Source of the DNA: Brachionus manjavacas
Taxonomy: Eukaryota; Rotifera; Eurotatoria; Ploima; Brachionidae
Assembly: GCA_019054805.1 (NCBI GenBank)
Contig: JAHQIY010000005.1
Span: forward strand, 348,501-412,500
DNA length: 64,000 nt
Direction of reading: 5' to 3'
Shown one piece after another: positions 12,855 through 51,300 of this stretch. The translations under genes were made by a program, and so were the position numbers. Below the pieces are notes generated by a model that saw nothing but the letters and a program-made list of their open reading frames with translations, was not told where the DNA came from and searched no databases. The stretch's first letter is position 1. Each line of letters begins with the position of its first letter.

Positions 12855-13605
12855 CTTTTATGTTAATGTAAGAAACAGATACTCAATAAGTTCTTAGGAA
12901 ATCTTTAACAAAAGACTCCTCTAGATAAAGAAACTTGAAAAATATTTTGTAAAATTCTTAAATATACTCTTAATAAAAAAAAACTTTAAGAAAAAAAATT
13001 AGATTCCAGTACGAAAACATTTAAGATTATTGTAAAGAAACTCAGTAAACCTTTGTTTAGGTTTTTTAGTAAGATCTTTTTTAAATCTTAATAAGGATCT
13101 CTAGAAATTTCTTTTATAAGATTTAGTATGATTTATTTTTTTTGTATGTTTTTCGTATCCATTAAAAATTAATTATTAGTTTTTTCACATAAAAAAAACA
13201 TTATAAAAATATTATTCATTTCTCATTTTTTGAATTGATTCCAGAAGTCTAATACCTGAATTATGTAAAATAGTATTGGTTTTTTAATTATACGTAATAT
13301 GGCAAGATAAACACTTTTGGATCCAAACTATTAGACATTCTTTTTGCAAAAGAAGAGTTAACTCAAGGGACAGTCGAATCATCAAAAAACTCCCTCTTTG
13401 GAAAGAAGAAAAGTTAATCAAAAGTAACTATTAATTAGATTTTATTTTAATTTGAATAATTGCTTTTTTTATTTTGCTTCTAAAAAGTTGAAAACAATTG
13501 AATCTTTTTAATGAATTTTGGCCATTTATTGTTCGTTCTTTAAACCAAAATGTTTTCATCTATTGACAGTAAAAAAAAAATCCAAAAACTTTTTATCTTT
13601 TAAAA
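12855..13605. other. AT-rich intergenic DNA, no gene seen
   Basis: No frame with recognisable homology was found. Short AAATCTTTAA/AAGATTT-type words recur at 12880-13130. Confidence 0.4.
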
Positions 13606-13922
13606 ACTAGAAAAAAGAATGTACTTTTTGTAATATTTGTCAAAGAACCCAAATACTATAAAGTCTCATTGTTCTCTTAAAAAAAGAATGTACTTTTTGT
13701 ACTTTTTGACAAACCACATTACGAAAGCATCTGTAAATTGAAAAGTTATAAGACAAAAAAATCTTTTAATCTTTATTTTACATAAATTTGAATGAATAAA
13801 TTTTAGCATAAATTAAAATTGTTTATGTATTCTTGATCTAACATCTTAAGACGCTTCTTTTTTCAATCGAATGATTTTTTTAAGAATATATTTGTTCTCT
13901 TAAATAAGATAAAATTTTTGAA

Positions 13923-16017
13923 AATGAATTTTGAAAAACCCATGGACTTGATCGATATTTGCCATAATGTCAAACCAGAAAATGTTTTCGATCCGGAAAA
14001 AGAGCAATTTTTAGCCCTTGTAAGGTATAAGATCGCTTTATAAACTACAGAGAGCTTAAGTAAATTAAAAATTAATGGTTTTAAAAGCATTGTAAATGGG
14101 ATTGGAAAAGAATTCTCATTAGCACCATTGATTTGTACGATTTCTCACCTAATGACATAAAATTATAAATATATATAATATCACTTAATGACAAACCATT
14201 AACGAATCTAGATTCTGTTTCCGAAACATTGAAAAATTCTTCAACTTTTTAAATAGATCTTTTGATCATATTCAAAACCGAACTCTTGCCTGTAGCTGCA
14301 TTGTCGAGAATTCCTGAATAGATGACACACCCTTCTTCAAGAGTCTCAGAGCTTTTATTTTTGATGTGGCCATTAAATGAGAAATTGTTCAAATCAATCA
14401 AAAAATCTATTCAAAAAGTTGAAGAATTTTTAAATGTTTCGGAAACAGAATCTAGATTCGTTAATGGTTTGTTTCTTTTTGCTTCAATGAAGTAAAAATA
14501 CAAAGCACTTAAACTTTTTAAGCTGCGACGGTCGAAGGACTCCTTTTTTATTTAAACAAGCTTCAATTTGTTCTTAGCTTGTGGAACGAGTCATCGACTT
14601 TTTTAAACTCATTTGGTTTGTACAAGGAACAAAATTCGTCGTCCTACGACAGGTTAATCTAGAATGACCTTTACAATGCCCCCTCTTTCTACCGACGAAA
14701 CACTGCAAATTCAAGGCAGGTCTTAAAAGAGCCTAGGTTGAACATTTGTGTGTTAGGTAATTTAATTTTTAAATAACTTCAATGTTTTCTTTTTAAAATA
14801 TATTGTAAATTTAGGTCATCCACCAACCTTTATTGAATTAATCAAAAATGAGGTAAACTCAAAAGATGACGGTCTCATTCAAAGATTTCATTTTTGCGCC
14901 CCTGACCCCGAATTTATAGATGACAAAATGAATATGAGTGCACAGCAACCAGCATGCTCACTCGAAGTTCTGTTTTGTATCATTTGTAAATTAAATGAAG
15001 GCGGAGTCACATATACTTTGTCCAAACAAGGAAAATCCGCATTTAACAACATTTATTCAAAGTTCAAAGAATTTATTAAAAAAGTATACAAAAAAGGGTT
15101 AGGGTTAATTGTTTTTCGAATATATTATTTTAAAATTCTCTTTTTCATTTTCAGTGCTTTATGTGAGAAAGCAGCTTCACAAGTTCTACGCCTCTCAATG
15201 GTTTTGAATATGCTTGAAACGCCTTACAAAATACTATTTTTGCCTTAAGACTTTTTTCGAATTGACAAATACATTATCGACCAAAATTTAATAAATCTAT
15301 GCGAGAAGATTCTTCAAGAGAACACAAAAATTCATGAAGTTGTTGAAGATACTGATACAGACATTTACTTTAAAATTATCAATATTAAAACAATACAGCA
15401 ATCTCTCGAAATTTTGAGCTCCTTTTGTAGGCACAAGCTTATCCTTGCAAACTATCAAGTGTCCGATTGGAGTAAAAGTTTATATGTGGTGCTTGATGAG
15501 TTAATTCAAACATGTAGAAATCAAGAAATGACTTCGAAACTTGACGAGTTGGATCTCAAATTGATTGAAAAAGTCCTTCGATATAATCAAAAAGTTTTTA
15601 AGCTTAACGATTTTAACCTAAGTACGTCTCTTGGAAACGCTGCTGACGTTAAAAGAGTTTTTTATCTTATTGAGGATATGGGACTTGGAATTGTAAAAGT
15701 GAAAGGAAAAAAAGTTGGTTTTTTTATCCATAAGGGAAGTCAAGAATCGAATAAATCATTTTTGTTTTAGAATTTTATTTCTCGAAAATCGATCCTGAAA
15801 AATTTAACGAAGACTTTAATTTGATCTACAAATTATCTAAATATAAATGCACTTTAGCTGAATATTTCAGTTTCGAAGGTAAAAATAAAAACTTATTAAT
15901 TTAATTAAGTTAATTATTAGGATTTTAATTTTAGGCGATTCAGCATTCACTTCTGTTCCTGATTTGAACAAACAACTGATGCCGATCGCGAATAAAATTG
16001 TCATTTTTTTTCTTACC
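13923..16017 (+). pseudogene. DUF3987 (primase/helicase-like) protein gene, disrupted
   Basis: Coding-like blocks in order: 13923-14040 (NFEKPMDLIDICHNVKPENV, FDPEKEQFLALV); about 14050-14160 (GIGKEFSLAPLI); a Walker-A segment that is inverted (see 14188-14474); 14520-14757 (AATVEGLLFYLNKL, LWNESSTFLNSFG, LKEPRLNICVLG). After a short intron comes HPPTFIELI, DDGLIQRFHFCAPDP, then FKEFIKK. A second intron (about 15083-15153) leads into LCEKAASQVLRLSMVLNML and the C-terminal part to 15770 or beyond. The order and the E-P-R-L-N-I-C/G-H-P and GLIQRF motifs match DUF3987, a family of P-loop proteins tied to replication or phage/plasmid primases. The usual DE is WNE here. There are stops near 14665 and 15247. 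A terminal exon near 15953 (DSAFTSVPDLNKQL) is uncertain. Confidence 0.65.
14188..14474. repeat. Inverted duplication flanking a flipped Walker-A segment
   Basis: The arms, about 14188-14252 and 14407-14474, are inverted copies, including AACGAATCTAGATTCTG with its inversion and TTCCGAAACATT. The segment between them, read on the minus strand, encodes GCVIYSGILDNAATGKSSVL (P-loop) followed by NMIKRS and the arm-encoded VEEFFNVSETESRFVNG. The same VEEFLNVSETESRFVNG occurs on the plus strand in the right arm. So the ATP-binding segment points against the rest of the DUF3987 gene. Confidence 0.75.
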
Positions 16018-16109
16018 ATAGCTTAAATCTGTCAGAACTCTGTTATTTTATTTTAGTTTTAACCTCTGAAAATGTAACTTAACCTCATATTGTTGTTACG
16101 AATTCTCAA

Positions 16110-16641
16110 ATGGCCCCCAAAAATAATATTGTAATTGAAGTTCATGCACCCGAATCAAATTCCAAAAGGAATTTTACCACTGCGAGTGTTCCTGAAAACG
16201 CCAAGCGTATAAACAATGGAAATATACACCATAATTTAATGAACTTTAGCATTGATGAGAACGACATGTTTACAAATGACAACGATTTGCAACGACCTTT
16301 ATCTAGCACTCATATTGCAGTTGATATTCCATATATCAGTATTCTTAACAATTCAGATGTAACGAATAGAGTCATGTCGGATAGAGTCAAAAACCCAACC
16401 TTCTAAATCAACAATTTGTGATCCAGCAAAACGAGGAGTTAAAGATGGAGGCCAAACGACAAAAGAATCTGTTAGAAAAAATGGTCAAAAAAAGAAAGGA
16501 AAAGGAGGTCGAGGCGGAAAGCGGGGAGGAAAAAACTCGCGAAACATGGATAAAAACCTCGAGATCCATGATATCGGAACCGATGATGAAGCATTAGAGG
16601 AAGAAGAGCTTAGAGAGACAATAAACCCCAACTATTTATAG
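16110..16641 (+). pseudogene. Basic, RGG/Lys-rich protein of the KDZ-like element
   Basis: The first frame, 16110-16406, starts MAPKNNIVIEVHAPESNS. A shift near 16390 leads into a second frame to the stop at 16639-16641. That frame has KKKGKGGRGGKRGGKN at its centre and an acidic tail, DDEALEEEELRE. The RGG/Lys-rich stretch suggests nucleic-acid binding. I do not recognise a domain. It lies between the DUF3987 gene and the transposase, same strand. Either an intron is missed or the frame is broken. Confidence 0.45.
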
Positions 16642-16838
16642 GACTTTCCTAAAAAATTCTTTTCAAGTAAAATTATTTATCGATCTATTTTGTTTGTTTT
16701 TTTAGTATCCTTAGCCTGTTAATCTTAAAAATTAGCAATTATGATTTTAGAAATTAATCACTAAAAAGAATTTTTAATTGTCATTTTTTCGATTATCAAT
16801 CCAAACCATTATTTTAATTCTTTTTTAACAGCAATAAA

Positions 16839-16885
16839 CTATGGAACATTTTAAAGTGCTGGCAGCACTTTAAAATGTTCCATAG
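16839..16885. repeat. Perfect 23-bp hairpin between two genes of the KDZ-like element
   Basis: Arms 16839-16861 and 16863-16885 are exact reverse complements (CTATGGAACATTTTAAAGTG start) with a single-base loop. It sits about 200 nt after the basic protein and just before the transposase remnant. It could be a processing or termination signal, or a fold-back replication product. Confidence 0.85.
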
Positions 16886-16974
16886 CTTTATCCGATAAAG
16901 CCATTCGAAAGAATGGACTCTATGTTATTCGGTATTGAAATACTCGAACGACTAAAACATTAACAATTTTCAAG

Positions 16975-18500
16975 TAAATGTTCTGAATCACTTTCTTCGG
17001 TCAAAATATTCAATTGATGACATTGAAAGTTTTAAATTTAAGAAGAAATTTTACAAAGACCTGTCTCCATCAGACTTCTCTGTACAAAAAAACCGAATTA
17101 AAAGATTTTTACAAAAGAATTATGGGCCACTTGTAAAAAAACATTTCACATATCAAGGAACAAATTGTAGTTTTTGTAATAATCAAATAGTTTTTTTTTA
17201 AAATATAGACTGCTTTTATTACTCATTTTGTAAAAGATCCTGTAAAGGATCCTGTAAAGGAAAGATTTTTTTATAATAATGTACTTTTTAATGACATTTT
17301 ATCTATTACAAATGAGACTGTTGTTGAGATTAAACTTTTGGACTCTTTAAAATCCGATATTGTTTACAAGCAAAGTCCTTTTTTGGCATTTACTAATGCC
17401 TACAATTATCTATTTTGCTCAAAATTTAAAAACCCTCAGACTGTCAGGTATCGATTAGAAGAAAAAAGACTAATTATGCCGAAACGACAACTGTAGTAAA
17501 CTTTTACTTAAGACGGAAACCAAAAGGTTACCAGATTTAAATGTTTATCGAAGAAGAGTGACCTTACTTTAAACGAGTTTGGTAAGTTTATAAGCTAAGA
17601 GTATTCAAGAATTATTTTAATTAAAAGTATTTTGAAAAGGTCTAATTCCTGTCGGTTGTATCAATAACACAGAATAAGGTAGCTATTATTGTTCAAAACA
17701 TAAACAGGAAGATCCTCAACTTCAATTTTCATATGGAAAATTTTCATATAAATGTAGACTTAGTCAAATTAAACTCAAACAAGTCGGTCCATTGGCAAGG
17801 TTAAGTGAAATCGAAATTAATGACCGATTTCAAATCTCAGACATGGGTGTTTAATACCTTGTTGATTACAAAGATAATCAACTGTTTTAGGCAAGTGAAA
17901 AACAGCTAAATGAAAGGTAAGTAAACTATAAGAGTAGTGATGAACAAATTAAAAATTCAACTAAAAAAGACTTGATCGAACTGTGCAATTAAAAATCAAA
18001 AACAGAGGGTGTTTTTCTTAGTGTCTATACTTGTAACGTAATCGCGAGTTTTAGAGAGATTTTTCAAAGATAATCAATTAGTTATGTGGCTGTTTTTTGC
18101 TTGGATACATTCGATAATATGATATATTCTCCTGATATCATTATTTATGACTTGGGTTGTCGTTTAAAACGATATATAGAAAATAACGAAAAAATTATTA
18201 ACGAAACTGACGGATTAAATTCGTTTAAAAAAAAACGAATTCTTGTCGATAGATTTCATTTAAAAAAAACATTCTAAAAATGATTAGTTTTGTGTAGAAA
18301 ATTGTGACGTAAATCATTACGATGATCTAAATGATGTGAATCCGTCTAGTTTCGAAGAAATCAATTTCTTGTTTTCAAAATATAAACACATTAAAAAGCA
18401 TATGAGAAAGACAAGACAATTTTTTTATTTATACAATATTTTAGATGAGTACAATTTTACCTATTTGATTCAAAAATTAAATGAACAAAATTTTTTGTAA
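16975..18500 (+). pseudogene. KDZ (Kyakuja-Dileera-Zisupton)-like transposase, decayed
   Basis: Reading across frameshifts gives a cysteine-containing N-terminal half: TYQGTNCSFCNNQ near 17150, CRNDNCSKLLLKTE near 17480 and YYCSKHKQEDPQ near 17690. An intron at about 17582-17640 splits this half. The C-terminal half has GVFLSVYTCNVIASFREIF, IIIYDLGCRLKRYIENN, ILVDRFHLKKH, then FCVENCDVNHYDDLNDVNP and INFLFSKYKHIKKHM. The order YD-x-x-C, then DRFHxxxH, then Cys and a late Glu block followed by aromatic helices is the KDZ transposase pattern. Several stops and shifts make it inactive. Family assignment rests on pattern memory. Confidence 0.55.
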
Positions 18501-18612
18501 AAGCTATCAATAAAAAGTACATTCTTTTTTGGGAGAACCTACATTTGACTTTATCTTAAAATAAAAAGTACAAAAAGTCCATTCTTTTTTGGGTAGAACC
18601 AACATTTGACTT

Positions 18613-19145
18613 TGATTAAAATATATATATATATATTTTTAAGACATTTATTTATTGAGTAATTTACAAGACGAGGGATTTATGTAAGAAAAAGAAAATG
18701 AATTGTGTATGAGGCAGAAAAATCATGAAGCGAGTGCTACAAGAGAAGAAGACTCGATTGACGAATATGAAGAAAGACCAATTGTACGTGGCCAAACAAT
18801 GATCTCAATTAATTTTATTTATTTTAAAAATTAAAAAAATATAGCATAATAAAATTAATCAGTAAATTTGAAATTTTTTTTAAGTACTATTTTTAATTAA
18901 TTTAGTCTTTTAGTGAGTATTTTTTGATAATTTTAGATCTAAATCGATATAAATCAACAAAATATTTAATTAAGAGTCTTCAAATTTCTTTTTAGTTGAT
19001 ATTAGAATCCATATTTTTTTTAATATTATTTTGGCTTACTAGAATCTTAAAGGATCGTTTACTGATCTTAAAAAAAAAGTGAACTGAACTCATAAAGATT
19101 CTTAAAAAGAAAATGTTAAGTAACAAGCCAAGATTCTTGATAAGA
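18613..19145. other. AT-rich spacer, no gene seen
   Basis: It contains an (AT)n run at 18619-18637 and, at 18660-18790, a weakly coding-like stretch (KENELCMRQKNHEASATREE) without recognisable homology. The rest is low-complexity. Confidence 0.35.
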
Positions 19146-19149
19146 TCTT

Positions 19150-20130
19150 GTCTAAGATCCTTCCTAGAATTAAGTCATTGGATACTACTCCACAAACCTT
19201 TTCATTGCCATCAAAAGCTTCTAGTGTCTTTTGGCAAAAGTAAATGATGTTTTCAGTCGTTTGGCGTCTTGGACTGAACCCTGATTGTTTGTAGACTATT
19301 TATTTATATTTTTCAATATATTCAAGGAGTTTATTTTGTACAGGTCGTTCTATAAGCTTAACAATTGAATTTTTAACACTAATTGGTCTTTATTTACTCG
19401 GGTTATTATGATCATTTTTATATTTTTGAATCATTGTAATTTTTGCGATTTTCCAATCATCCAAAACTAAATGTTCATTCCACGACCAGTTAATCATCTT
19501 AAGCATCAGAATCTTACCTGTCTCTGGTAGACTGTACAAGTGTCTATTTGCAATTTTGTCTGGACCAGGTGTCGATTTAATATTAAGTGCTCAATTTAGC
19601 TCAAATATATTAAATTCTTCATCAAAATACGAGTCAATTGGTTTTGTATGAACAGTTCACAATTTATATTACTTAAATAATTTTCTACCAAATCTTTGTT
19701 TTCGTAATTAAAACGGATAACATTTTCTTCGGAAAATATCATACTTAAAATGCTCCCAAATCAGGATTATAACGGATAATTTGGTCACCTAATTTCAGAT
19801 CAGGGATTTTATTCTTGGTATTTTAATTGTATTCAAATGTGCTGATTTGTTTAATTTTCCTCCAATATTCAGCAGAGTAACTTTTGGATTTTTCAATATT
19901 TTCACAAAATTTTAACCACTTTTTCTCTTGTATCGCTTTTATTTCCAATTTAATCGTCTTTGTAAGCGAGTAGTATAATTTTCTAAGCTCAAGGGCACTT
20001 TTGTTTTTTCCTAGTTAATTGAAGACATTTTATCTCGCCTTAATAATTTCAACCAAGTACGATAGACTTGTATATTAGTTAGATAGACTTGTATATTTAT
20101 TTTTTCTAGTGGTTGTAATTGATGAGTTTG
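19150..20130 (-). pseudogene. LINE linker plus reverse transcriptase N-terminal half
   Basis: Minus strand: LYYSLTKTIKLEIKAIQEKKW and YSAEYWRKIKQIS (linker), then STPGPDKIANRHLY, WKIAKITMIQKYKND, RPISVKNSIVKLIERP, QSGFSPRRQTTENI and FCQKTLEAFDGNEKVCG. These are the canonical RT blocks before motif A. Stops are scattered through it. The GPDKI, RPIS and QSGF-type motifs are diagnostic of APE-clade LINE reverse transcriptases. Confidence 0.8.
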
Positions 20131-20563
20131 CATCAGATAATTTTATAAATTTATTGAGGCAAATTGATGTTTATGATCAAATGTAAATTTCAGATCAAAA
20201 TTTTTAGTTTTTGATTTTAAAAAAAAGTTATTTTTTATCATTTATTTAGATACTAAATTTTTAAACTATATTAAACATGATTTGATTAATCTTTAATTGG
20301 GAAGAAGATCATATGAATTTTTTTCTGAAGTAAAATAAATTTTAAATCAATATTTTTAAATTTTGCAATTCATAATTTAACTTTGTTGCGCTGTAATATA
20401 TTTTATTTAATATTGAAATAACATTTGAAGCCATAATTTGAATGCTTTAATATGGATTTTAAATTTGTCTTAAAAATTTTCAAATGGATATTTTATAAAA
20501 ATCAATTATAGATCAATTGAAAAAAAAAGTTTTTATTTTAATTTATTTAAAAAAATGAGATAA

Positions 20564-24029: not shown

Positions 24030-25195
24030 TAACGTTGTTAAAGTTAATAAAATTAGATAAAAAAAAGAATCAAAATAGAGTAAATAAGCTAAAAAAATGA
24101 AAGTTGAAAAGACATAAATTGGAAAAGATTGTTACATGTGGCACATGTTTAAATAGTTCAAGTTTCAGGAAAAAAAGAAGAAATAGTAAGGTAGCAATTA
24201 CACAGTGGAGTTGGGTATTCAATATATCTTGATTCAAAACCTTCTTTGTATTCTTTCACCAGTCTTTCAACCAACGGAATAGAATGACTCAGTCCTGTCC
24301 CAACATATTTCTCACTCAACTCAAAAAGACGATTCGAGACTGTTAGTAATTTTAGTTTATTTAAAGCTTCATGTTGCACGATGTTGGAGGGAGTATCATA
24401 TTTTAACTTAAGAATAGATTTTACTGCTGTGTTCTGAATTGCTTGTAGTTTTTTGATATTATTTTCTGAAAATGAATTTAAGCAAGGAAAAAAATAGTCT
24501 AAAATTGATCCGAATAAAGATTTATATAAATTTCCTAGTGTGTTTTGATTGAGACCCCATTTTTTATTAGACAATATCTTAATAATATTTAGCCTTTTAT
24601 TGCAGTGTTCTTTAATTTCGTCTACTAGTATATTAAAGTTTAACTTAGAATCAAATTTAATACCAAAAAACTTGGTATTAAATTTCTTTTTTATTTCTTT
24701 TTGGCTCATTATTCTGTTTGCATAAATTTTTAAGTTTAGATTATCACTCTCTTTTTTGTACCTAGAGAAGACTACTGAACACGACTTTTCAACTGATATC
24801 TTCATTTTCCATTTAATAAGCCATTGTTCTAGTGCGTTGGTGTATTTATTTATCTTATTTTCAAGGTTCCCCTTTTTGTTATAAATGAAGAATGTAACTA
24901 GATCATCTGCGAAAAGCAGAGAGTATTCTTTATTTGTTTTGTTTCGTTTGGGGATGTCATTAATATATATACTAAATAAAAGAGGACTAATTACTGAGCC
25001 TTGAGGAACACTTGCAGTTATTATATATTCTTCGCTCAGATGATCATTCACATTTACCTTAAATGTCCTACTATCTAAAAAGGATCTAATCCAGTTAGTC
25101 AAGTAATGAGGTGGATTCATTTTAATCAATTTAAAAAGTAGACCTTCATGCCAAACCCTATCAAAGGCTTTAGAAATATCAAAAAAAAGGCTGTG
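24030..25195 (-). mobile_element. LINE family A copy with the longest open reverse transcriptase frame
   Basis: A 323-residue minus-strand frame, 25129-24158: MIKMNPPHYLTNWIRSFLDS, VPQGSVISPLLFSIYINDIP, LLFADDLVTFF (catalytic YADD/FADD), KWKMKISVEKSCSVVFSR, FFGIKFDSKLNFN, FLYKSL-type helix and C-terminal LVKEYKEGF with TPLCNCYLTI. Just upstream, 25195-25130 still reads LFFDISKAFDRVWHEGLLF. It is 5'-truncated there. The 3' UTR (24135-24030) matches 48240-48330 but stops before the terminal hairpin and tail. It is the best preserved RT sequence in the window. Confidence 0.85.
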
Positions 25196-25199
25196 AGAA

Positions 25200-27240
25200 A
25201 AAAGTTTTTAAACGAAGAATAATATTTTAGTTAAAAATTTGAAAGGTCGGAAGGATAAAACTTTTAGCGATGTAACCATTCCTAATTAAATCAAAAAGCT
25301 ATTTAATTTTTACCTAATTGATAAAATGTTCTAATTGAATAATGCTGTACGCCAATTTGCTTACGGAATTGATAGCGGTTACTTTTTTTTATTGATAGGT
25401 GCCACAATTCACTTAATTATCCCATCTTTACTTTTCTTTTCAAGATACAGTTAAATTATCGACAAGCAAGCTCTCCCATTTAGAAGACAATAATTAAATC
25501 ATTATGCGTACTCTTTAAAGGTCATAAGTTCAAACTAAAGAAATACAATCTACTTTTAGCAATTCTAATTAACGTTTATTTTTTATTTACATCAAAATTT
25601 TAATTAAAGTAATAAGGAAATTTTCTTCTTTTTAATATAATTGTTAAAAAGTCATAAGTTAAAAAGTCAAGTTAAAGTCCGAACTTAAAATTTTTTTTTT
25701 AAATTGCGTACTTGGACTTTAATTTTAGCTTTGTCTTCAAATTTAGCGCCAAAATAACTCCCTGAAACTGCAAAAAAATTTATGAGACCGCGATCATGAC
25801 TGATGAATTATCGTTCTTATTAATTATTTTAACGCCCTATTTTAAGTCATAGTCACTGAAATTAATGTCCAAGCCAGTCTTTGAGTTGTCTTAAGACCTG
25901 TGAGTTTTAAACTACTCTTCTTTTTAATTTTTTCTTGAAATTGTTTAACTTTTTGTTCATTTCTTGATTTTTAGATTTTTAAATGAAAAAAATATTAATT
26001 TAACGTTTAGACATCATAACTCTTAATTTATCCCGAACCACAACAAAATTAGTGCTAATTACTTTATGGTCATACAAAAAATCATTGTACATTTATCATC
26101 TGTTTTTAATTTTTAAGGATTTGGAAAGTGATAATCAAAAGATTTTATTACTTTATTTGAATTGCCTATTATACATTTTCTTTATATTATAAACAATAGA
26201 ATAATATTATTTTTTACTGTACATCTAGCTTTATGGCAGCTTTAGTGATCATGATTTTGATTTTTGCATTTAGATCCTTGAAAATTTTCTGAGGCACAAA
26301 ATCATGTTTATTAACCTTAATTAATAAATGTATACCGCTTACTGATTAAAAAAATTGAAAAATTGAAAAAAATCTTAATTGAAAAAAATTTGAAGACTTT
26401 TTAGAGATAAATAAAAGAAACTTCAAAAGATATTTTACAGAAATCTAAAAGAAATTTTTAAAGTTATTCTAGAAAAAAATGTACGATAACCTGTAAAAAA
26501 ACTCTACAAATTTCTCTAAAATTTCTTTAAAGATCCTTTAAATATAGTTGACTGGGTGATTACTGTTTTTTTTAAAGGATGATCATTGTACAATCGAAAT
26601 GTATAAAATTATTGGCAAAATTTTTTTAAAATTAAGGACAGTAAGTTATCTGTTGGTCAATTTGGTATACATCTAAACTTAAAAAAATTTCCTTCTATTG
26701 ACTAAAATTTTTTTTTAATTTTTAATCAATTTTGACAGTCGAAATTATACCATGTGCACTATTTTTGGTAAAATAGACTCAATAGTTGTTTTTCGATTTC
26801 TATTTTTGGTGGTAAATTAAAAATAGAAATTATTATTTTGTCATTCCTAATAATAATATAACTAATTCTATTTTCGATATAATTACATTTTTAATTACAA
26901 ACTTAAATTTTGAAGAGTATAAACAACAATTAGTTATCTAAATAGTAGAAAAAATATGAAATATAAACAGCGATATCAGTAGTTATTCATGTGGTTGATT
27001 TCTTTTGATTTTTCAGAATTAAATGTATTTGATTTTTTTTATAAATATTAATTTTATTAATTATACGAATTATAAAGAAACTTAAATTTAATGTCTAAAA
27101 AGTTTTTGGAAGATGCCGAAGGCACTTGTTTGATATTACAACTTTTTTGGATAATTTTTAAGATTTTTATTGCACTTAAAAAAAATTAGTCGTTATTATT
27201 AGATTTACTAGACTAAAAATTTGAAGAACTTAAAAAAATT
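25200..27240. other. AT-rich intergenic DNA, no gene seen
   Basis: No coding-like frame was found on either strand. It contains degraded words of the TCTTTAAAGAT class (26400-26540) and AAGTCAAG-type words (25640-25700) that recur at 28630, 32380 and 34380. Confidence 0.4.
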
Positions 27241-30258: not shown

Positions 30259-31176
30259 TTATATTTTAGAAATAATTTTTTTTTTTTCAATCAAATATTT
30301 TCTATACAATATATAAGATGCAAATCGAATTATTTCTAAATATTCATTAGCTGTTTTCGAATTTAAATAATGATTATCTTCAATTTTAAAATTAAATTGA
30401 GATTCATTTTGAGTTATTAAAATAACAAACAAAAAAACTGTCGCATTTATTCCATACAACACTGTATTTGCTGGTAGTTTATTCGGTTCAAATAATCCAT
30501 CATCTAATTTTAAAAAAATACGGTATATAAACCCATTTAAAACTTCAAACCTTTTTAAAATTAATTTCTTCATTTTATTGAGCGTTTTGGGCCATTCGAA
30601 TGGAACTTTTAACACGAAAATTCTTTCTTTTGTAAAATTCTGGTCTAAAATGTATGAGAATGGGACATAAAAAATGCTCTCAACCTCGAATGAATTTGGC
30701 TTTAGAGAATTAACAATCTCAAAAGTTTCTTCGTACGGCTCCTCGTCTGAATCTTTTTTTAGAATGCAAATAAATGGCACCAAGTAATGACCAACCGGAG
30801 AAACAAAAGGACATAGTTGACAAACAAGATCAAGATTTTTTTTTGACAAGCCAATTTCTTCATATGTTTCCCTGAATGCCGTGTCCTCTAAATCTCGATC
30901 TTGTGAAGCATCGAATTTACCACCCGGAAAACATATTTCGCCAGGATACGCTCTCAACAGTGAACTGCGAATTGTAAACAAAATATTAAATTCATTATTC
31001 TTACGAAAAAGAATTATCAAAACTGCACACTTGTTTAGTCTATCTACATTTATACCTAGCTGGCAATGTGGAAAGCCATCCAATGTTACTGGTCCTTTTT
31101 GATCAATTCTCAAATGGTTGGTTTTACAATCGAAATTGGAAAATTTTTGCTTAAGACTCTGGTATAAATTAATCAT
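30259..31176 (-). CDS. Nudix CoA diphosphatase, NUDT7/NUDT8 type, with C-terminal SKI
   Basis: A single open frame of 305 residues with ATG at 31176. The CoA-hydrolase signature is LFTIRSSLLRAYPGEICFPG at residues 66-85, then GGKFD and FRETYEEIGL (residues 101-110) of the Nudix box. The first box acidic residue falls at a shifted place, as in other CoA pyrophosphatases. These enzymes cleave CoA or acyl-CoA to a phosphopantetheine product and 3',5'-ADP. The last three residues, Ser-Lys-Ile, resemble the peroxisomal PTS1 signal, and mammalian NUDT7 is peroxisomal. A hydrophobic stretch (INATVFLFVILI) lies around residue 250. No introns. It lies downstream of NAD kinase on the same strand, 235 nt away. 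Confidence 0.85.
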   Translation of the reverse strand: MINLYQSLKQKFSNFDCKTNHLRIDQKGPVTLDGFPHCQLGINVDRLNKCAVLIILFRKNNEFNILFTIRSSLLRAYPGEICFPGGKFDASQDRDLEDTAFRETYEEIGLSKKNLDLVCQLCPFVSPVGHYLVPFICILKKDSDEEPYEETFEIVNSLKPNSFEVESIFYVPFSYILDQNFTKERIFVLKVPFEWPKTLNKMKKLILKRFEVLNGFIYRIFLKLDDGLFEPNKLPANTVLYGINATVFLFVILITQNESQFNFKIEDNHYLNSKTANEYLEIIRFASYILYRKYLIEKKKIISKI

Positions 31177-31411
31177 TTTTTATAATGATAAAATAAAACT
31201 AATTCATGTTATTTTATTTTTAATTTTTTAAAATAATTTTATAAATCAAGAGTTTGAATTCTTGCTAAATGATTTCTAATGAGTTAATTTAACACTTTTT
31301 TATTTTTAAGCAAAAAAATAAAGGTAAAATTTTCAAATTAGGTTTAATTTAAAATATTGAAAAAAAAATTAAAAAAATGTTTCAAAATAAAAGATCAGTT
31401 ACACTTATACA

Positions 31412-34400
31412 TTAGATTTCATCTGACTCATTTTTGGTCTTTAAAGAAGTGCTCGAAGAGGATCTGGATGGAACTTTGGAATTTTGTGTGTAACATGAAT
31501 TTAGTGGAAGTTGTTTTTGCCTTTGGTTCCAGTGCAAACAAGTGGCTAGGCCCTCGAACCAGTCATTTAGCTGATCACTGCGGGAAATAGTTGGCAGTGG
31601 ATATTCCGAAGTAGTTATAGAAATGTAAAAGCCTTGCTTAAGCTCAGTGGTGTTTCTGCCGTCGACCGAAAACCATGCAGTGTGTCTTGAATCGGGACTA
31701 AGAGCTACTTTCAAATCGCATCCAGCTGGAACCACTATTGGCCTGAAACTTAACGAGTGAGGACAAATCGGAGCAATAATTAGGGACTGAACACTTGGAT
31801 GACACATGGATGCTCCGGCAGCCATTGCATAAGCTGTAGATCCTGTTGGCGATGAGATAATTAAGCCGTCGCCTTGTACTGTAGTAATCAAATAGTCATT
31901 CACATACAAATCTAAATTGGACAAAAAAGGACTGCAACCTCGTCCGACTACAACTTCGTTCAAGCATAGAAGATCGGTGGGAGCAGAGTCTTGTTGATCT
32001 TTACTTGGTGACGATTCATTGCTTTGAGATAAACAACCATTGGTATCGTTTAGCTTTTGGAGCATATCTGAGGATTTTTCGAGCTTACATTTTAGCCGAT
32101 TGCGTAATAACAATGGAACACCACCTTTGATTACACAGTTAATGTATTTTCGGTGATTATCGAAATCAAATGGACACAAAAATCCTAATGATCCCATGTG
32201 AATAGAAAGAATTGGCGGACAACTTTGCTTTAAATTTTTTTTTAGATTTTTTTAAGTCAAAATTGAAGATTTAAAATAATAAAGTTGAACATAAGTGTAA
32301 GCATTTTACAGAACCAAATTATCTCTTTTAGTCAGAGTTGCTCCTCAAGTCACTATTTTTCAAGTCTTTCGACCAAAAAGTCAAGTCAAGTCTAAACTTG
32401 ACTTTAATTTTTTTTATTAATTTTGAAAATTCTTAGCATTAAAATCAAAAGAAAGATTGATTTTAATAGAGTTATTATCAGGTCAGAGACATGAAAAGAT
32501 CTGATAATAACTCTATTATTATTATATAGTAATAATATTAATTTTTATTATTACCACGAAAAAAATTATTTTTGCTTTATTATTAAAAATAAAATAAAAA
32601 ATATTTAACTTTTTATTTTGATCATTTGATATTGATTTCAAAGTTTAATTTGTTCGTAAATTAGCCTTCTAATAAATGTTTTATTTTGAGTTTCAAGTTT
32701 TAAAAAAGATTGCCTTTTTTTGAGTCAATTATATTTTAAAAATATTAAAATTATTTATCAAACTTTTTCTGTATTTAATTAATTTATCGTAAATTTAATT
32801 TTTTTTTTTTTAATAAAGCTCATTTGCATAACATGAAAAAATTGAAAAATAAAATTAGTTTAAAATATATTGTTTTTATGGCTTTTAATTGATTTTGCGA
32901 AGTTTCAAAATTTATTAACACTCGTTAGTTCATATAGTTAAAAAATATATTTCTCTGACCAAAATTGCAATTATTTATATATTGAATAATTTTCATTTTT
33001 GATTCATAAAGAAAGTTAAGTTTCAAAGATAATCATTTCCTTTTTACTTTTGTACTATAATGTAAATTTAAATAATGTCTATTGATTCTAAAAACTAAAA
33101 TATTCTTCTATCTCTGTAATTTTTTTCCTTGTATAGCGCAATGTGCTTTCCTACGACGGCCTCCTAGTAGGACGACGGCGCAAGCCAGCCTTCCGTAGCA
33201 TTTTTATAATTATTATTGAGTTTCAAAGATTGCATAAAAAGTGAATCTTATTAAGTTAATATTAACAAGATAAACTTATATTATTGTTTAAAAAAAAGTT
33301 AATATGAAATTAGACGAAAATTTCTTCTTATATCATTAGAAAATTAAATTATAATTTTTATAATTTAAAAAAATTTAACAAAATCTTTTTCAAAATATTT
33401 TCGTTTAGGTGCATAAAATGCCGAGAGAAAAATACGCTAAACAAAAATTAAACAGCTTTCAAAAAAATAAAAAAAATTATTCCTAAAAAATAACCCTAAT
33501 TCGAGAAATTTTGCTTACTTTTAATTTTCTTTTTATATTAATCACTTTTTTATTTTTTAAATCTTTTACGGAGAGGAGAGTAAGGTTACTTGAAAAAGGC
33601 CGGATGCGTGCAGCAAGGTTCCGTCACCACCAACACAAATCAAAAAATCAATCTTATTTCGATCATTTTTTTCTAGTGTTTTGCATTCATTGATGCAAAA
33701 TTTTCGCAACGAAGGCTTCGTATTAGTTCCAAAAGGTTTCATTGCATCCTTTAACTTTTCATCTTTCAAAACAAATTCACTGTCATAATCTTTTTCTTCA
33801 ATAAACGTAATTAACTTGTGATCCTATTAAAAACAAAACAAATCTTTAAACTCAAAATAAAAATATTTTTTTTAAATTTTACAAATATTAAAAATTTAAG
33901 AATGTCATTAAAAGGCTTGTAAAGTTCATCGCACATTTTTTTGATTACCAACACATATAGAGGAGGGTTGGTCCATGACAACTGCTGCGATAATGGGTCT
34001 TGTACAAGTCTAGAATAAAAAAATTTTGACAACTTTTTCAAAATAATATGAAAATATTTATACATGACAAATTTCATTATTACAAAACAATGAAAATGTG
34101 AACAAAAATGTTCCAAAATAATTCTCTAATTTAATAACCAAGTCTTGGTTGATATGGAAAATAATTTAAAATTATTTATCTTTTTCATGTTTTAGAAAAT
34201 TTCGAGATTTAAATATTTTAAATTACGGTTTAAAGTTTAAATTATTATGTCATTTGCAGACAAATAAAATCGAATTTTTACCGTGCCATGCGGTTATGAT
34301 TGCGGTCACATTAATTTTGTTCAGCACAAAGGGAAAAAATTAAATTGAGAATTGACTTTTAAAAATTAAAACAATAAGTCAAGATTTGACGTAAAAGAAA

Positions 34401-36745: not shown

Positions 36746-39700
36746 CTAAGATTCATCTTCATTATCAAATGTTTGATAATTTGCTTTTGTTTGACTCAAA
36801 TTCTTTTGTGGTCTAGTAAAAGATGGACCTTGAAATGGTCGAGTTTATTTTCAATCCAATTAAAATATACAAAAAAAACCTACCAATATAGCTTAATAGA
36901 ACTGGAAGCAATATCAAACCATGCGATGCACCAATTATCACAACACTCAAATACATTCTAAAATAGAATACTTGGAATAGTTGTGAGTGCGAAAATGCCA
37001 ATATGACGATTCCAAGTATCTTAGTTAGCGTAATTCCACTAAAAACCTAGAATGGAAGATTTTTAATTTTTTTAATTTTTTTTCTAATTTTCTTACTGAA
37101 CTTCCCATATGAGCTACTGCATATTTAGCTCGATTCACTTTCGAACCACAATGGCGGAATGAAAACTCTCTTGCTATGTGAGCACAAAATTCTACCGAAA
37201 TTCCGATAGTCTAGTTAGTAGATTTTTTTCAATTTATTTTTAATTTTTTATAGTAAAAACTTACCATAACCAAATTAACAAGTGACACAGCATTTAGTTC
37301 GATGTTAAATAAATACATGGCACCAAACATGTCAATAATAATCATCACGATAGTCAGACAAATTAGAAATGAAGTATAAAAATCAATTCCAAGAAGAATA
37401 CCACATACCAAAAAGATAGCAAAAATGGATACACCCAAATGGACAGCTGTGTCTTTCCAAATTGTCAAATATTGCTCATAAAATACATAAGGATAACTGT
37501 ATGGTACTACCTCCATACTGGCGTTTGAGTTCGCTTTTTGTAGCATTTGACTGATATTTTTTGATATTTTATTTGCATGCCTCAATGATTCAATGAAGTC
37601 TTTGGAAGTCAGACCAACCGAATGATAAGCCATGAAAAAACTTGAGCCGATTTCATAGCTGTTATTTGTTGGTATCATTTCTATGGCTTCTCCATATGCT
37701 GCATGTCCTCCTTTGGCACATTTTAGACCAGGATTATCATGAATGAAAAATTGGAAGTATTTGTAAAAATCCTCTTTTGTCGGTCTTGTAGTTCCATTTT
37801 GGTAATGAACTTTGCAAGGCACACAATTCTTGTCCTCAAGACTTGATGGACAAAATTTACTTGTGTCATTTGAAAACACTCGGCAGCAGTCGCCCGAGGA
37901 CAACCAGTCGAAATAATCATCTAGCCAAGAGTTGGCCGCAATTGAAATGTAAGAATAATTGGACTGTAAAGACGCTTGATTAATTTGGTTCAGCATTGAG
38001 TCAATATTGCAACCAGATGTGGAACAAATTAAATTCTGAGTTTTTACTGAAGAGTAGTCGTCGACATTTTTTAGCACAAAGTAAACTGGCACGCCGACAG
38101 AAAGATATTTTTCCAAAGCTTCAAAATAGTCCAACACATAGGAGTCTTTGGGCATTGATAACTTTTGGTCAAGGCCTGTTTCAACTTTTCCCACAAATGA
38201 AACACTTGTGAAGAATATTGCAAAAAATACAATAATTACCAATGGACGAGTGTACTTTTTCATTAAAAAAGGTGCATGTTTATTTTTAAAAAAGTCAAAT
38301 AAAAAACTATTATTGTCGGCTTCAATTTTACTTTCTTCATTTAAAGAAGAAGTATTTGCTAAGCACCAAATCAAGTCATAGCGTTTTGATAGTTCTCTTT
38401 TGCAATCCAAAGTCATAAATGACACAAAAACAGTTATTTGTAGAATAAAGTCAATTAAAACAGCCAAGCTGGCGTATAATGAAAATATTCTGACTGCTGG
38501 CATTGGTGTTAGGGCGCCTAGAAAAAAAGCCAACGATTCGGCACTGCTTGTTAGCAGCATACTCGGACCAACTTTGCCAACTATTCTTGATATCTGTTCT
38601 TCTAAAGTTTCTTGATCAAGGCGAATATCGCGTTGATAGCTTTGCACCAGAATAAATATGTTGTCAACTCCGACTGCTAGCACCAAAAATGGAATCACCT
38701 CAAATATAATCAAAGTTGCTTTGACATGAAAATAAGAAAAAAGACCAATAGATGAAGCAACTGAGAGCATTACAATAATAACACCTACCATGCCAAGTGA
38801 AAATTTCATATCAACCAAAAATTGCTGGCACTCTTTTAAAATCCAACTAAAGTAACTTTCAGTTTGGTTTCGTTTGACCAATTTATAATTTCCCAAAGTT
38901 AAAGTAATGTACAAAAACATTGCCATGTAACTGATAAAAATGGTAGATACATCAGACTTTGATTCTCTATCTAACTCATCTTGAATAGACCTTTCAGCCC
39001 TGAACGAAATACTCATATTTTCATTTGTGTAATTTTTTAAAAATTCAATTACACTTTTTTCCCATGCCATTGCCGCCAAATTTTCACTTTGATTCTTGTG
39101 ATTGTTGATGATAAAAGTGAGAATCAAAGCCGAAGCGTTACCATATTGTTGAGTTTTTTTCAATTGTGGATATCCACCCATAGCCACAAACGGTGACACA
39201 ATTCCACCATATGTGCCCAAACAACTCAAACCAAGAGTATCATTTACACTTGTTGGCGACTTGGTGCATGTTTCGAAATGGGTAATGTAGTCTGCATTGG
39301 TAATGCCAAAATCTGGATCAACAATTGTTTTATCCAGTAGGTCAGGATCATTTTGCCAATAGTTTAAAATTGACTGAATTGTACAATTTGAATTGTCTGG
39401 CTTCAATGGTGCAAAGCAAATATCTTTCAATTTCACTGTTTTGTTCAATCTGAGCCCTTTGTCATCTTCCAGCTGTCCTTCAAGAGAGCTTATTTTATTT
39501 TGAAGTTCTAAAACTTGATGTAAAAAGTCCAATTTCAAAGCACTGCTATATTGTACAGGTCCAAAATCATCAAATATTTCATGTATCCAAGGTGTTTGGT
39601 CGGTTGGTCGAATTATGATTTGAGTGGCGCGATAAAAAGGTCTAAAATGAGAATCATAATAATCTTTATTAATTCGTGTGTCACTATTTTCTGGCGACCA

Positions 39701-41912
39701 GAGCTCAACCGGATCGGTCAAGACACTAAAATACATGAAACCACCTGAGCATACCAAGCATAGCACTAATCCAAGTAAAATAACTTTAACTGGATTCGAA
39801 GCACACAAAAATCCTAATTTTTTAAAAAAATTTCCAATACACCTGTCCGTAAAGACACTGAACATTTGTATTTTAGACGCTCTTTCGGCTAGCTGGCCTT
39901 GTAAAAAAGGTTTCGACTCTTCCTGACCATGTTCGCTATCATTATTTTGGCACAATTGCTTGTTTCCATTAGCTGATCTAGAAACAAAAATTACCAAGAG
40001 AAAAGTTGTGGTAAATACAATGAACAATGTTATTGCGAACACATCGCCACAAGTTAGGGCAAATATTTTGCACGGTTCTTCGATGGGTGGAGGCACTGGA
40101 ACTGGACACGAATCTTCGCAGTCTGAACAACCGCATGCTGAAGCGTTAAAATTTTCGGTTGTCACTGGCTTTGAGCATTCGTACATTGTGGTGTTTTTTG
40201 GCTTGATGTGAAGAGTTGAATTAAAATCGTATTCATTTTCAGTGATATTCATATTGAAAATAAAAGGAGTTTGAGAATTGTGGCCAAGATAATTTACAAA
40301 TATTTCAGGCGAACAGCTATCTGCCGATGTACCACAAAGTAGGTCCATAACTTTTTGATTACTAGCTGCATATTGCACATCTCTTTGGACAACAAAATTT
40401 TAAAAATCATTTCTATTTTTTATGGACTTGGAAAATTTAAAAGTTTTTGATCTAATTGGATTCAAATTAATTAAAAAAATTATTTCTTGAATATACAATT
40501 TTAACGAGAGAATTTTTTTACTAATTTAATTAATCTAAAAATATATTTTCTCAATTCATTAATAAAAATCGATTTTGAAATTTAAATGTATTAATTTATC
40601 TTTTGTAAATTATTTAAATTTTTTTTTTAATTTTCTGTATCTAGTACACAAAATTAAATTTTAAAATGAAATTGCAAATAAGTAGCATAATCTCGCGGAA
40701 AAAACTATGTAAAGCATGTTATATAAATTATTTAAATTAATTAAAAGATTAATTTCAATATCTAATAATAAGCTCTTTGAATTGAAATAATATTTTGAAT
40801 TGACAACTTCAAGATGCCCTTGATTTTAAGTTATTTCATCGTGATTTGAAAAAGGTTCTGATAAAATGATGCTTAAACAATGCAGATATTGCTGGTGAAG
40901 CTAATTTTTTTTTTTTAATTAAAAAAAAATATTTCACAGCCTTAATTAAGATAAATTAACAAATAGATGACGGTAAATTAAAGGAAATTTTTTTGTGAAG
41001 AATCATTTTGTAAAAAATGTGAAAAAAATTTATTCAGAAATGACACAGAGCAAATTTTTCTAACCCGAGATTATTATTAATAATTATATGATTTAATTAT
41101 TATTAAAATTATAAAGCTAGCGGTGCAAATTATTTCTAAAGAGTTTAAAAATAATAACTTGATATTTTCTTTTGGTACACTAAAATTTCCGTTTTATTTC
41201 AAAATATAAAAACAATCAATTATCAATTAAATTTTTAATATTATTTTTATTATTTGAACTTTTCTAATTTTATGATAGATGTCTTATTCATCTTATTCAT
41301 GTTTCTTCAACCCCATCATTTACTAACTTATCTTTTTTAATGATTATTATTAAAAACAAAAAGCATGATTAATATTAGTGTCAATTTTTGGTAAAAGGAA
41401 ACGTTAAATACTTAAAATTACCTGCACGATTTATAAAGAGCTTCAACAGAGTAATTAGTTATATGATAAGTGAGTTCGACCACTTCAATTTTCGTTTCGT
41501 TTTGACTCGGGTGATATTCATCCTCTTTGGTTATCAGCATGAATTCGCTTTGAGTGGGACTGCAAGTAAAATCACACAAAAAAGCTTTAAAGTTTTTAAA
41601 ACAAGAGGGGCAACGAGATAACAATTGTCTGGGGACTGATAAGTTATCATAAAATGTGATTAACTGCTCGTAATCACAACATGTACGTATGTCCTCATTT
41701 TCTTTATACATATGAGGACAAAGATTTTTGAAAATTTCAATGAATGTGTCATTTGTTTGAATTTTTGGTTCACCAGTGTATTTGCAGTTGTACCGACCAT
41801 CGACACCATGTTGTGATGGTCCGCATTGTCCATACCAAATACAATCAGACTTGGCGTGCTTAAAGCTCAAATAGAGAGTAAGAAAAATTTGAAAAATAAA
41901 GTCCAGCTTCAT
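36746..41912 (-). CDS. NPC1: NPC1 intracellular cholesterol transporter (5 exons)
   Basis: Exons: 41912-41422, 40382-37265, 37210-37097, 37046-36884, 36828-36746; phases all fit, total 1322 residues (human about 1278). It moves unesterified cholesterol out of lysosomes. A signal peptide covers residues 1-22. The Cys-rich N-terminal domain starts CIWYGQCG. Then come a TM helix, the middle luminal domain ([14 protein letters not shown]) and a sterol-sensing domain at about residues 600-780 ([17 protein letters not shown]). The Cys-rich C-terminal luminal domain has [16 protein letters not shown]. The last helices are [29 protein letters not shown] and [19 protein letters not shown]. The tail ends NEDES; the dileucine LLNF of vertebrate NPC1 is not seen. 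The 1 kb intron 1 has no evident gene. Confidence 0.95.
40383..41421. other. NPC1 intron 1, no gene seen
   Basis: About 1.04 kb of AT-rich DNA between the signal-peptide/Cys-rich exon and the main exon. No mobile element or coding stretch was recognised. Confidence 0.6.
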
Positions 41913-49372: not shown

Positions 49373-49784
49373 GACAGTCATCCGTAGCTTATTATTATTA
49401 CTTCTATTTGACCCTATCTGACTTATAGATTTTCGTCAAATTTTTCTTTTCCTCCGTTGAAATTAGTGTTTATTAAAATCGAGTAAGCAGGTTAGACTCG
49501 CTGGAATTTCAAATAATGATTGGCTTAACATTTGAGTAAATATGAAATCTAAAATCTAAAATAAATATTTATTTATAAATGTTTTTTTATTAACCAATAA
49601 TATAAAAATCCATCCTACATTTAAAATTAAAAACTGTCCGGTAATCATTTCGTGCTTAATTTAAAAAAAAATCTTCCTAATTGATATTTAAAGATCCGGC
49701 AAATTTCAGCCAGTCATGACAAAATATTAAATTACTTAGATATAAAATAGTAAAAAAAATTGACCAAATAAAATTGGCAAAAAA

Positions 49785-51300
49785 ATGAAATCAAAAATAA
49801 ATTTTCAAGAAAAGCTTTTCAAGTGGTGTGAGAGAACATCATTTCATGCAGTGCCGAACATAGCCACTAACGAGCACATAGTCCTCAAGTGTATGTGGTC
49901 AATATGTCTTTTGGCATCTCTAGGCTATTGCTGTCGTATTCTAACATCAAGCATAAAAGATTTCTATGAATACAATGTTCTCACCACTTATGAGATAGTC
50001 CAAGAATCTTCCTCCCTATTTCCGGTCATCACCATCTGTAATCTAAATGAATACGACCTGAGCAAAAATCTGCAACTTCTCAATTTATCCAATTATTTAC
50101 TGGACAATGCTGACACGTCACTGCATCCACGTGACGCAATGGAGCAAGTTCAGAAAAATTTCTTAAAACTGACCAACATCAGTGAGCTAGAAGACACAAG
50201 ATTTGATTTGAATGACATGCTACTCAGCTGCCATTACAACGAACTAGCATGTTCAGTGGCAGATTTTAGCATGATTAAAAATGAGCTTTATGGAAATTGC
50301 TATTCTTTCAACATGGCCAAAAACAACTCTATGAGAACCACTTCAAAATACGGTCCCAAATACGGCCTGCAGATGGAATTGTACATCGGAAATGCGGACA
50401 GCAGCTCGCCAATGAGTCTGACCACCGGAGTCATTGTGTTCATCAACAATCAAACCAGTCCTGTTCGCATCACAGACCCTGGCATAGAGTTGTCTCCCGG
50501 AACACAAACAAACATTGCTGTTAATAGAATGTTCATCTATAAGCTACCACAGCCTTACAGTAATTGTGTGGAGAACACGGCTGAGTCAAACGAACGCTAC
50601 AAGGATAATTTGGTACAAATGACTTTCGAAATGAACCAGAACTATACTCAAAGTTTCTGTCTTGAGCTTTGCTATGAAAGCTATCTGCTGAATGAGTGCA
50701 ATTGTTCGGATGGAGACATTACAGACTTGATTGGTAACTACTCAGATCCATGCCATGCAGATAAGCAAAGTTTGCTGTGTTTCTATGATATGAAGAGCAA
50801 ATTTTTTGACTGGAACTTCAATGAAAATTGTAAGATGTCATGTCCTATTGAGTGCGAAAGAGTGACTTTTAAAGTAGCTTCGTTGTCCACCGCAGTCTTT
50901 CCGTCTTTATTTTACGAGAAAATTTTGCTCAACAATTCATTTATCAAGCAAAAGTTTAAAATAGACTCCAAAAGCTTAAACCAAGACTACGATGATGAAT
51001 CGGCTGACCACTATGAAGATTTCAAAAGGAGTCTTCTATCAGTCAACATCTATTATGATACGGATACTTATGAGAAGGTCACAGAAACACCAGAGACAAG
51101 CTTTGGCACATTGTTGGCAAATTTAGGAGGACAATTTGGACTTTTTTTGGGTAAATTTGAACCCAATTTTGAGTATTGTTTGATTTTTTCTAAATTGTCT
51201 AATTTTAGGTATATCTCTGCTCAGCTTTTTAGAACTAATCGAATTGTTCGCTTGGCTATTAATCTATTTATATCACAAAATATTAATATTATTTAATTAA
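49785..51300 (+). CDS. DEG/ENaC sodium channel subunit (2 exons)
   Basis: Exons 49785-51150 and 51209-51300 joined across a 58-nt intron give 485 residues. The N-terminal cytosolic SFHAVPNIA corresponds to the conserved His-Gly gating motif, with Ala for Gly. TM1 is about residues 31-53, followed by SLFPVITICNLNEYD (the FPAVTICN motif). The large extracellular domain is rich in Cys and N-glycosylation sites (CLELCYESYLLNECNCSD, YDMKSKFFDWNFNENCKMSC). Before TM2 is LGGQFGLFLG. The splice joins the pore segment GIS (the G-x-S selectivity filter), and TM2 is SLLSFLELIELFAWLLIYLY. Closest to FMRFamide-gated/pickpocket-type channels by pattern. A TATAAAA at 49741 is close upstream of the ATG. Confidence 0.92.

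Follow-up and report, generated by a model that had tools for sequence, protein, structure and literature searches.

We analysed a 64,000-nucleotide stretch of the genome of the rotifer Brachionus manjavacas (contig JAHQIY010000005.1, positions 348,501 to 412,500 of the forward strand; hereafter the window) and, within it, the element that we call C5w. Judged from its sequence, C5w is very probably a decayed DNA transposon of the Kyakuja-Dileera-Zisupton (KDZ) superfamily, with a gene for a DUF3987 helicase-like P-loop ATPase, middle open reading frames (ORFs) and a CxC5 plus KDZ transposase following one another on one strand. A second copy, C5b, lies at C5:4629845-4633689; other copies and relatives are named by contig, and C3a is the relative used as query. 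The features of C5w, in window coordinates, are as follows.

13557-13575, plus strand: outer 5' terminal motif CATCTATTGACAGT, the true 5' end, which also starts C5b and C4.
13611-13707, plus strand: 5' subterminal array, two units spaced 69 bp, with AAAAAAGAATGTACTTTTT.
13924-14040, plus strand: possible first exon of the DUF3987 gene (MNFEKPMDLIDICHNVKPEN...), an open frame from ATG that stands, as judged by eye, where C3a has its first exon.
14095-14166, plus strand: DUF3987 gene, N-terminal piece of exon 2 (tblastn against the C3a helicase, E = 0.003).
14195-14344, minus strand: P-loop (Walker A) piece of DUF3987, in the opposite orientation to the gene (tblastn against C3a, E = 1e-10).
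14516-14755, plus strand: DUF3987 Walker B exon, LWNESSTF (tblastn, E = 5e-16).
14856-15083, plus strand: DUF3987 exon with DDGLIQRF (tblastn, E = 2e-16).
15147-15722, plus strand: DUF3987 C-terminal exon, its terminal stretch winged-helix-like by eye (tblastn, E = 7e-15).
16083-16641, plus strand: middle ORFs from the ORF list (16083-16406 and 16363-16641), the second basic and of low complexity.
16836-16888, no strand: 26-bp hairpin, 96% complementary, between the middle ORFs and the transposase.
16974-17583, plus strand: N-terminal exons of the KDZ transposase, with the cysteine-cluster region and DGN, the first catalytic D (tblastn against C3a, E = 4e-14 and 0.006).
17639-18488, plus strand: KDZ transposase core with YDLGC (second D), DRFH and the late E, with stops and a frame break (Pfam E = 8e-4; tblastn E = 2e-41 and 4e-15).
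18512-18593, minus strand: 3' subterminal array, two inverted units with 60-bp spacing.

A first-pass annotation of this DNA had described doubled motifs, inverted at the two ends, with same-strand genes between them, and both observations were borne out. The 19-nt motif AAAAAAGAATGTACTTTTT occurs on the plus strand at 13611-13629 and 13680-13698 and, inverted, near the 3' side at 18512-18530 (exact) and 18572-18590 (one mismatch). These four matches at up to two mismatches compare with a shuffle mean of 0.11 in the window (0 of 100 shuffles reached four), and the coding exons between the pairs lie on one strand. The motifs had been taken for the ends of the element; they are subterminal units and not termini. 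The outer 5' end, set by homology to C5b, is at 13557, which puts it 54 bp beyond the first AAAAAAGAATGTACTTTTT, and its motif adjoins an 8-bp target-site duplication (TSD) in C5b (7 of 8 positions) and in C4 (8 of 8). The search for the outer 3' end revealed nothing convincing in 18501-20500; relaxed matching returned three weak candidates there, at 19643, 20024 and 20169. The 8-mer flanking the 5' end was found by a loose search of 18551-19300 at two places, neither of them adjoining an end motif.

The C5w copy is broken by stops and frame breaks, and the inversion of its P-loop piece is framed by inverted arms of 76 bp (14191-14266 and 14397-14472). The D of Walker B, present in C3a and C4, is replaced by N. 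A ciliate code (TAA and TAG read as Gln) was ruled out as the explanation of the in-frame stops: they reflect decay, because the exons of C3a are open under the standard code. The candidate first exon gave no significant match to C3a, and the middle ORFs gave no Pfam match; possibly they encode a separate small protein or the N-terminus of the transposase.

The genome (114 Mb, 61 contigs), in which a Wnt match at E = 6e-114 agrees with an animal source, was searched for relatives. Only C5b is a close copy of C5w, with an internal deletion and with 90-94% identity over the long matched pieces. Profile searches gave two matches to KDZ (PF18758), one of them above the cut-off of 26.6 bits, and, for DUF3987 (PF13148; cut-off 27 bits), nine above the cut-off among 11 matches listed. 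On contig C3, at the locus of C3a, about 6 kb separates the best KDZ match from one of the DUF3987 matches. This element is 9,625 bp long and carries inverted terminal arrays of a 61-bp repeat (about 10.5 and 9.4 copies). When its exon pieces, joined by eye, were scored, DUF3987 reached 79.9 bits (E = 2.8e-22), KDZ 35.2 bits (E = 1.3e-8; 34 bits on its single exon) and CxC5 (PF18718; cut-off 26.9 bits; CxC families were tested in C3a alone) 38.5 bits (E = 1.5e-9). The transposase exons of C3a add up to about 580 aa, with the gene start and the middle ORFs provisional. Beside the transposase-side array stands a tandem unit of 29 bp, in which a short palindrome can be made out by eye (L024 2569-2803).

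Nine long insertions, eight of them independent, have related ends. In five (C3a, C3b, C2a, C2b and C2c) the DUF3987 gene lies upstream of the KDZ transposase and both are full or nearly full. In C5b the transposase is preserved, together with the 3' part of the helicase gene. C10 is a deletion derivative that has kept both ends, a perfect TSD and the KDZ gene and has lost DUF3987. Genome-wide, 77 KDZ and 75 DUF3987 matches were collapsed by hand to 36 and 31 loci. A DUF3987 gene was present within 15 kb of 14 of the 36 KDZ loci (within 6 kb of 12), each time upstream and on the same strand; at the C2b locus the DUF3987 gene of the next copy lies downstream as well. In 5000 random placements scored for the same strand and order, the mean was 0.08 pairs and the maximum two.

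The ends were compared in 11 independent insertions (C3a, C3b, C2a, C2b with its segmental duplicate C2c, C10, C4, C2na, a miniature inverted-repeat transposable element (MITE) in the window, C18, C5b and C5w). Target duplications of 8 bp, which the first-pass annotation had proposed to look for, were perfect in eight of the 11 and matched at 7 of 8 positions in C18 and C5b; that of C5w could not be read. For random 8-mers, the expectation is 1.75e-4 for 8 of 8 and 2.1e-3 for 7 of 8 or better. The outer ends are short and related among copies (GAGCAATAGACAATG / CATGGATTGACAATG; CATCTATTGACA / GACCTATTGACA), with a core close to WATTGACA or WATAGACA. Inverted subterminal arrays with units of about 50-93 bp lie inside the ends in the C3a family, in C4 and in C2na, a 2.4-kb derivative with no open stretch above 100 aa; in C18 and C5b no subterminal array reached the score limit. 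The proposal that both genes belong to one element is supported, since they lie inside precisely bounded insertions with related ends and 8-bp TSDs. The MITE of the window has ends of the C18 type:

1416-1886, no strand: MITE of 471 bp, with a perfect 8-bp TSD, TTATTTTT, at 1408-1415 and 1887-1894.

It has short inverted arrays and no open stretch above 71 aa. Its family is abundant, because at least 232 matches were found in the genome, several per place (40 of 483 candidate places were scored).

C3a and C3b are 99.4% identical over their whole length, gaps included, and have different TSDs. In their interior non-coding sequence, 4,143 bases could be aligned, with an identity of 1.0 (three decimals), and the compared codons differ by one synonymous change and five gapped codons. 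Both genes moved together recently, as these two near-identical 9.6-kb copies stand at different sites. For changes between families, the ratio of nonsynonymous to synonymous rates (dN/dS) against C3a was 0.07 (C1a), 0.09 (C18) and 0.30 (C4) for DUF3987 and 0.23, 0.23 and 0.30 for KDZ, with dS near saturation, no ratio from the C5w DUF3987 gene and modest codon counts (198 for C1a and 177 for C18 in DUF3987, 195 for C4 in KDZ). These ratios indicate purifying selection on both genes between families. Near-identical copies gave 0.43 and 0.39 (C2a; DUF3987 and KDZ) and 0.65 and 0.84 (C2b), closer to neutral, with too few changes to decide. In the identity tables of both genes, C3a, C1a and C18 are mostly split from C4 and C5: C4 shares 49% with C5 in KDZ (C5b, 202 positions) and 48% in DUF3987 (C5w), and with C3a 35% and 40%. 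The KDZ comparison of C4 with C5w departs from this split, at just 35% over 96 positions.

This departure, the limits of the between-family ratios and the nearly neutral values within families weigh against the reading of C5w as a KDZ element with its own helicase-like gene, and further points stand beside them. Read through stops, the transposase stretch of C5w scored 19.6 of 26.6 bits for KDZ (E = 8e-4) and the helicase stretch 13.2 of 27 bits for DUF3987 (E = 0.05), both under the Pfam cut-offs. On C5w alone, the family calls of the first-pass annotation would rest on weak scores; in C3a they stand. The C3a helicase gene has a frame break and the C3b transposase gene another, and none of the copies has been established as fully intact. 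C4 has DUF3987 and the N-terminal part of the transposase with no detectable KDZ core, and C18 has both genes with DUF3987 partial, its matched part lacking the P-loop and later exons. The ends of C4, C18, C5b and the MITE were set by homology together with the TSD, which leaves one or two bases of freedom. No partner was detected within 15 kb of 22 of the 36 KDZ loci and 17 of the 31 DUF3987 loci. Two of the 22 unpaired KDZ loci were inspected and proved to be C10 and C5b, and no KDZ gene was seen at the five unpaired DUF3987 loci inspected among the 17. The copies elsewhere in the genome, on which the first pass had made its case depend, gave a divided answer: bounded insertions with both genes exist, but C10 has one gene and 22 KDZ loci have no detected partner. 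The scores of C5w under both thresholds and the outer end beyond the motifs also count, taken literally, among the refuting outcomes that the first pass had named. These mixed outcomes do not overturn the reading in view of the bounded copies with both genes.

Several groups of known elements were compared with the rotifer element (papers are cited by PMC number and from parts of their texts). Zisupton and Dileera elements have an 8-bp TSD, and Kyakuja elements have a 7-bp TSD and 5'-CA..TG-3' ends with no terminal inverted repeat (PMC12730594). The 8-bp TSDs and inverted related ends found here differ from the Kyakuja branch. With the Zisupton/Dileera branch the rotifer element shares the KDZ DDE domain, the CxC5 cysteine cluster, several exons, inverted ends and the 8-bp TSD; it differs in having the DUF3987 helicase-like gene. 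The assembled C3a transposase of about 580 aa compares with up to 1300-1400 aa in other KDZ elements (PMC12477816, PMC9297572), and subterminal tandem arrays are not mentioned for other KDZ elements in the parts of these two papers that were used. For nematode Zisupton no TSD was detected, and the main text of that paper does not contain the word helicase (PMC9297572). KDZ elements are among the largest reported eukaryotic DNA transposons, and giant brown-algal ones carry accessory genes, mostly of unknown function (PMC12477816). The fungal KDZ transposons with TET/JBP genes likewise combine the transposase with an accessory enzyme, which is a DNA-base dioxygenase there and a helicase-like ATPase here (PMC12730594). 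The combination of KDZ and DUF3987 was not found in the literature searched (subscription papers and outside preprints were not covered). Since accessory genes are a known feature of KDZ elements, some elsewhere may carry a helicase that is as yet undescribed. The first-pass annotation had suggested a new type of transposon: the pairing of KDZ with a helicase-like gene stands, but the composite element, which is well supported, is better called a variant of KDZ. We read it as a lineage of KDZ transposons that brings along a helicase of the replication type.

In the DUF3987 protein, STGKS (Walker A) and DE (Walker B) are invariant in C3a, C4 and C9, and DDGLIQRF is invariant also in four bacterial relatives. 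Identity between the element helicases and seven bacterial loci is 25-34%. The 'DNA helicase' model of PHROG was matched by three of three element members (best E = 3.7e-12) and its primase model by one of three. The name of primase, also used in the first pass, is not supported: Pfam finds DUF3987 alone in the C3a helicase (first exon outside the scanned string). Little sequence stands ahead of the ATPase in C3a. Phage records gave no helicase relative at E ≤ 0.01, and in viral_contigs 125 stretches fitted a pattern, none of which was confirmed as a helicase relative. A sequence search of solved structures gave no credible match. The AlphaFold prediction of a bacterial DUF3987 relative (four sequences) had a mean pLDDT (predicted local distance difference test) of 52, with 250 of 514 residues below 50, and was not used for a fold search. 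DUF3987 proteins are predicted helicases found beside primases in bacterial mobile elements (Kazlauskas et al., PMC5862659). The PrimQH and All3500 families of that study share the DUF3987 domain and DDGLIQRF with the rotifer protein, and the C-terminal winged helix typical of bacterial DUF3987 proteins is suspected in it; the rotifer gene differs in having no fused primase, in its several exons and in its place inside an animal transposon. Unwinding activity of the element protein is a prediction only.

In the mechanism that we consider, the transposase would make cuts staggered by 8 bp at the outer ends, and the subterminal units would be putative binding sites for element proteins. The DUF3987 protein, as an ATP-driven helicase or remodeller, would be loaded at the subterminal arrays and may then help to open or assemble the ends, or may copy the excised element. 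Whether the helicase has any role in transposition is, from the sequences compared, evenly balanced. It is somewhat unlikely that the protein has no part in end work and instead copies the excised element as an episome, circular or linear, or else serves replicative transposition. The company of primases kept by DUF3987 proteins in bacterial mobile elements (PMC5862659) and the PHROG helicase and primase matches speak for such a role, and the lack of a Pfam primase domain in the C3a helicase, with its short stretch before the ATPase, speaks against it, as do the 8-bp TSDs, which fit ordinary cut and paste.

We regard it as unlikely that DUF3987 is cargo with no part in transposition, which serves the host, for example, or acts against rivals. 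C10 lacks DUF3987, yet its KDZ gene, its two ends and a perfect TSD are in place, and it may therefore have been moved, at least in trans; this point is void if C10 lost the gene after insertion. Unrelated accessory genes are carried by other KDZ elements (PMC12730594, PMC12477816). Against cargo, DUF3987 occurs in both deep groups of elements, and its between-family dN/dS is equal to or below that of the transposase. That a KDZ element merely adjoins an unrelated DUF3987 gene, by chance or nested insertion, as the 17 of 31 DUF3987 loci without a detected partner might suggest, is very improbable: it is refuted by C3a, C3b, C2a and C2b, since common TSD-bounded ends enclose both genes in several independent insertions, and 14 loci have the same order and strand where 0.08 were expected. 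Spread of a host locus by segmental duplication is hardly credible, for although C2b and C2c have common flanks and a common TSD, so that one is a segmental duplicate of the other, flanks and TSDs differ among C3a, C3b, C2a, C2b and C4.

Apart from the paired loci, two groups of more divergent DUF3987 genes, with no KDZ partner detected in the stretches inspected, are represented at C9:3382212-3383539, C1:9312000-9312700, C1:4840873-4841316 and C2:4076857-4077308. C9, C1b, C1c, C1d and C2d were rejected as further pairs, as no KDZ match at E ≤ 1 was found in the inspected stretches. The ORF adjoining the C9 gene, in which no Pfam family scored above its cut-off, we take to be hAT-like; it is not common to C1b. 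At C4:8896134 to at least 8910000 (L051, L052) a C4-type terminus leads into a tandem run of its 92-bp subterminal unit. This unit fills the stretches read (8896222-8897000 and 8908000-8910000), with motif matches between them and the middle unread, so that the array appears to measure about 12 kb or more; it lies about 10 kb from the contig end. Here a C4-type transposon end has apparently expanded into satellite-like DNA. In C1:8021955-8058422, four sites with KDZ matches, spaced by about 12 kb, suggest a large tandem repeat with a KDZ fragment, and a terminal-type motif recurs at C4:2099615, 2108812 and 2118015, with a spacing of about 9.2 kb. Other ORFs of the window scored above the Pfam cut-offs:

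24158-25207: reverse transcriptase (RVT_1).
30259-31179: NUDIX.
31412-32251: NAD kinase C-terminal domain.
37229-40399: NPC1/Patched-like sterol-sensing protein.
49764-51296: amiloride-sensitive sodium channel (ASC).

Tn7 with TnsC, Mu with MuB and IS21 with IstB are bacterial transposons that pair a DDE transposase with a P-loop ATPase. These ATPases are AAA+ regulators; DUF3987 is a predicted replication helicase family. We propose tentatively, as something short of an even chance, that the rotifer elements may be an animal cut-and-paste lineage in which a replication-type helicase derived from bacteria or phages is a core gene, loaded on the subterminal arrays to drive end opening, or else copying. 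It would be a eukaryotic counterpart of the ATPase-partnered bacterial transposons, and its arrays may also seed satellite-like DNA. To our knowledge, the handling of DNA by KDZ elements has been little studied. With a helicase-like gene that the element itself keeps, under purifying selection, and with defined ends, 8-bp TSDs, near-identical recent copies and many short derivatives, this family offers a ready test system for a helicase in eukaryotic cut-and-paste transposition. It would also show an animal genome in which a replication helicase of the prokaryotic type is active.

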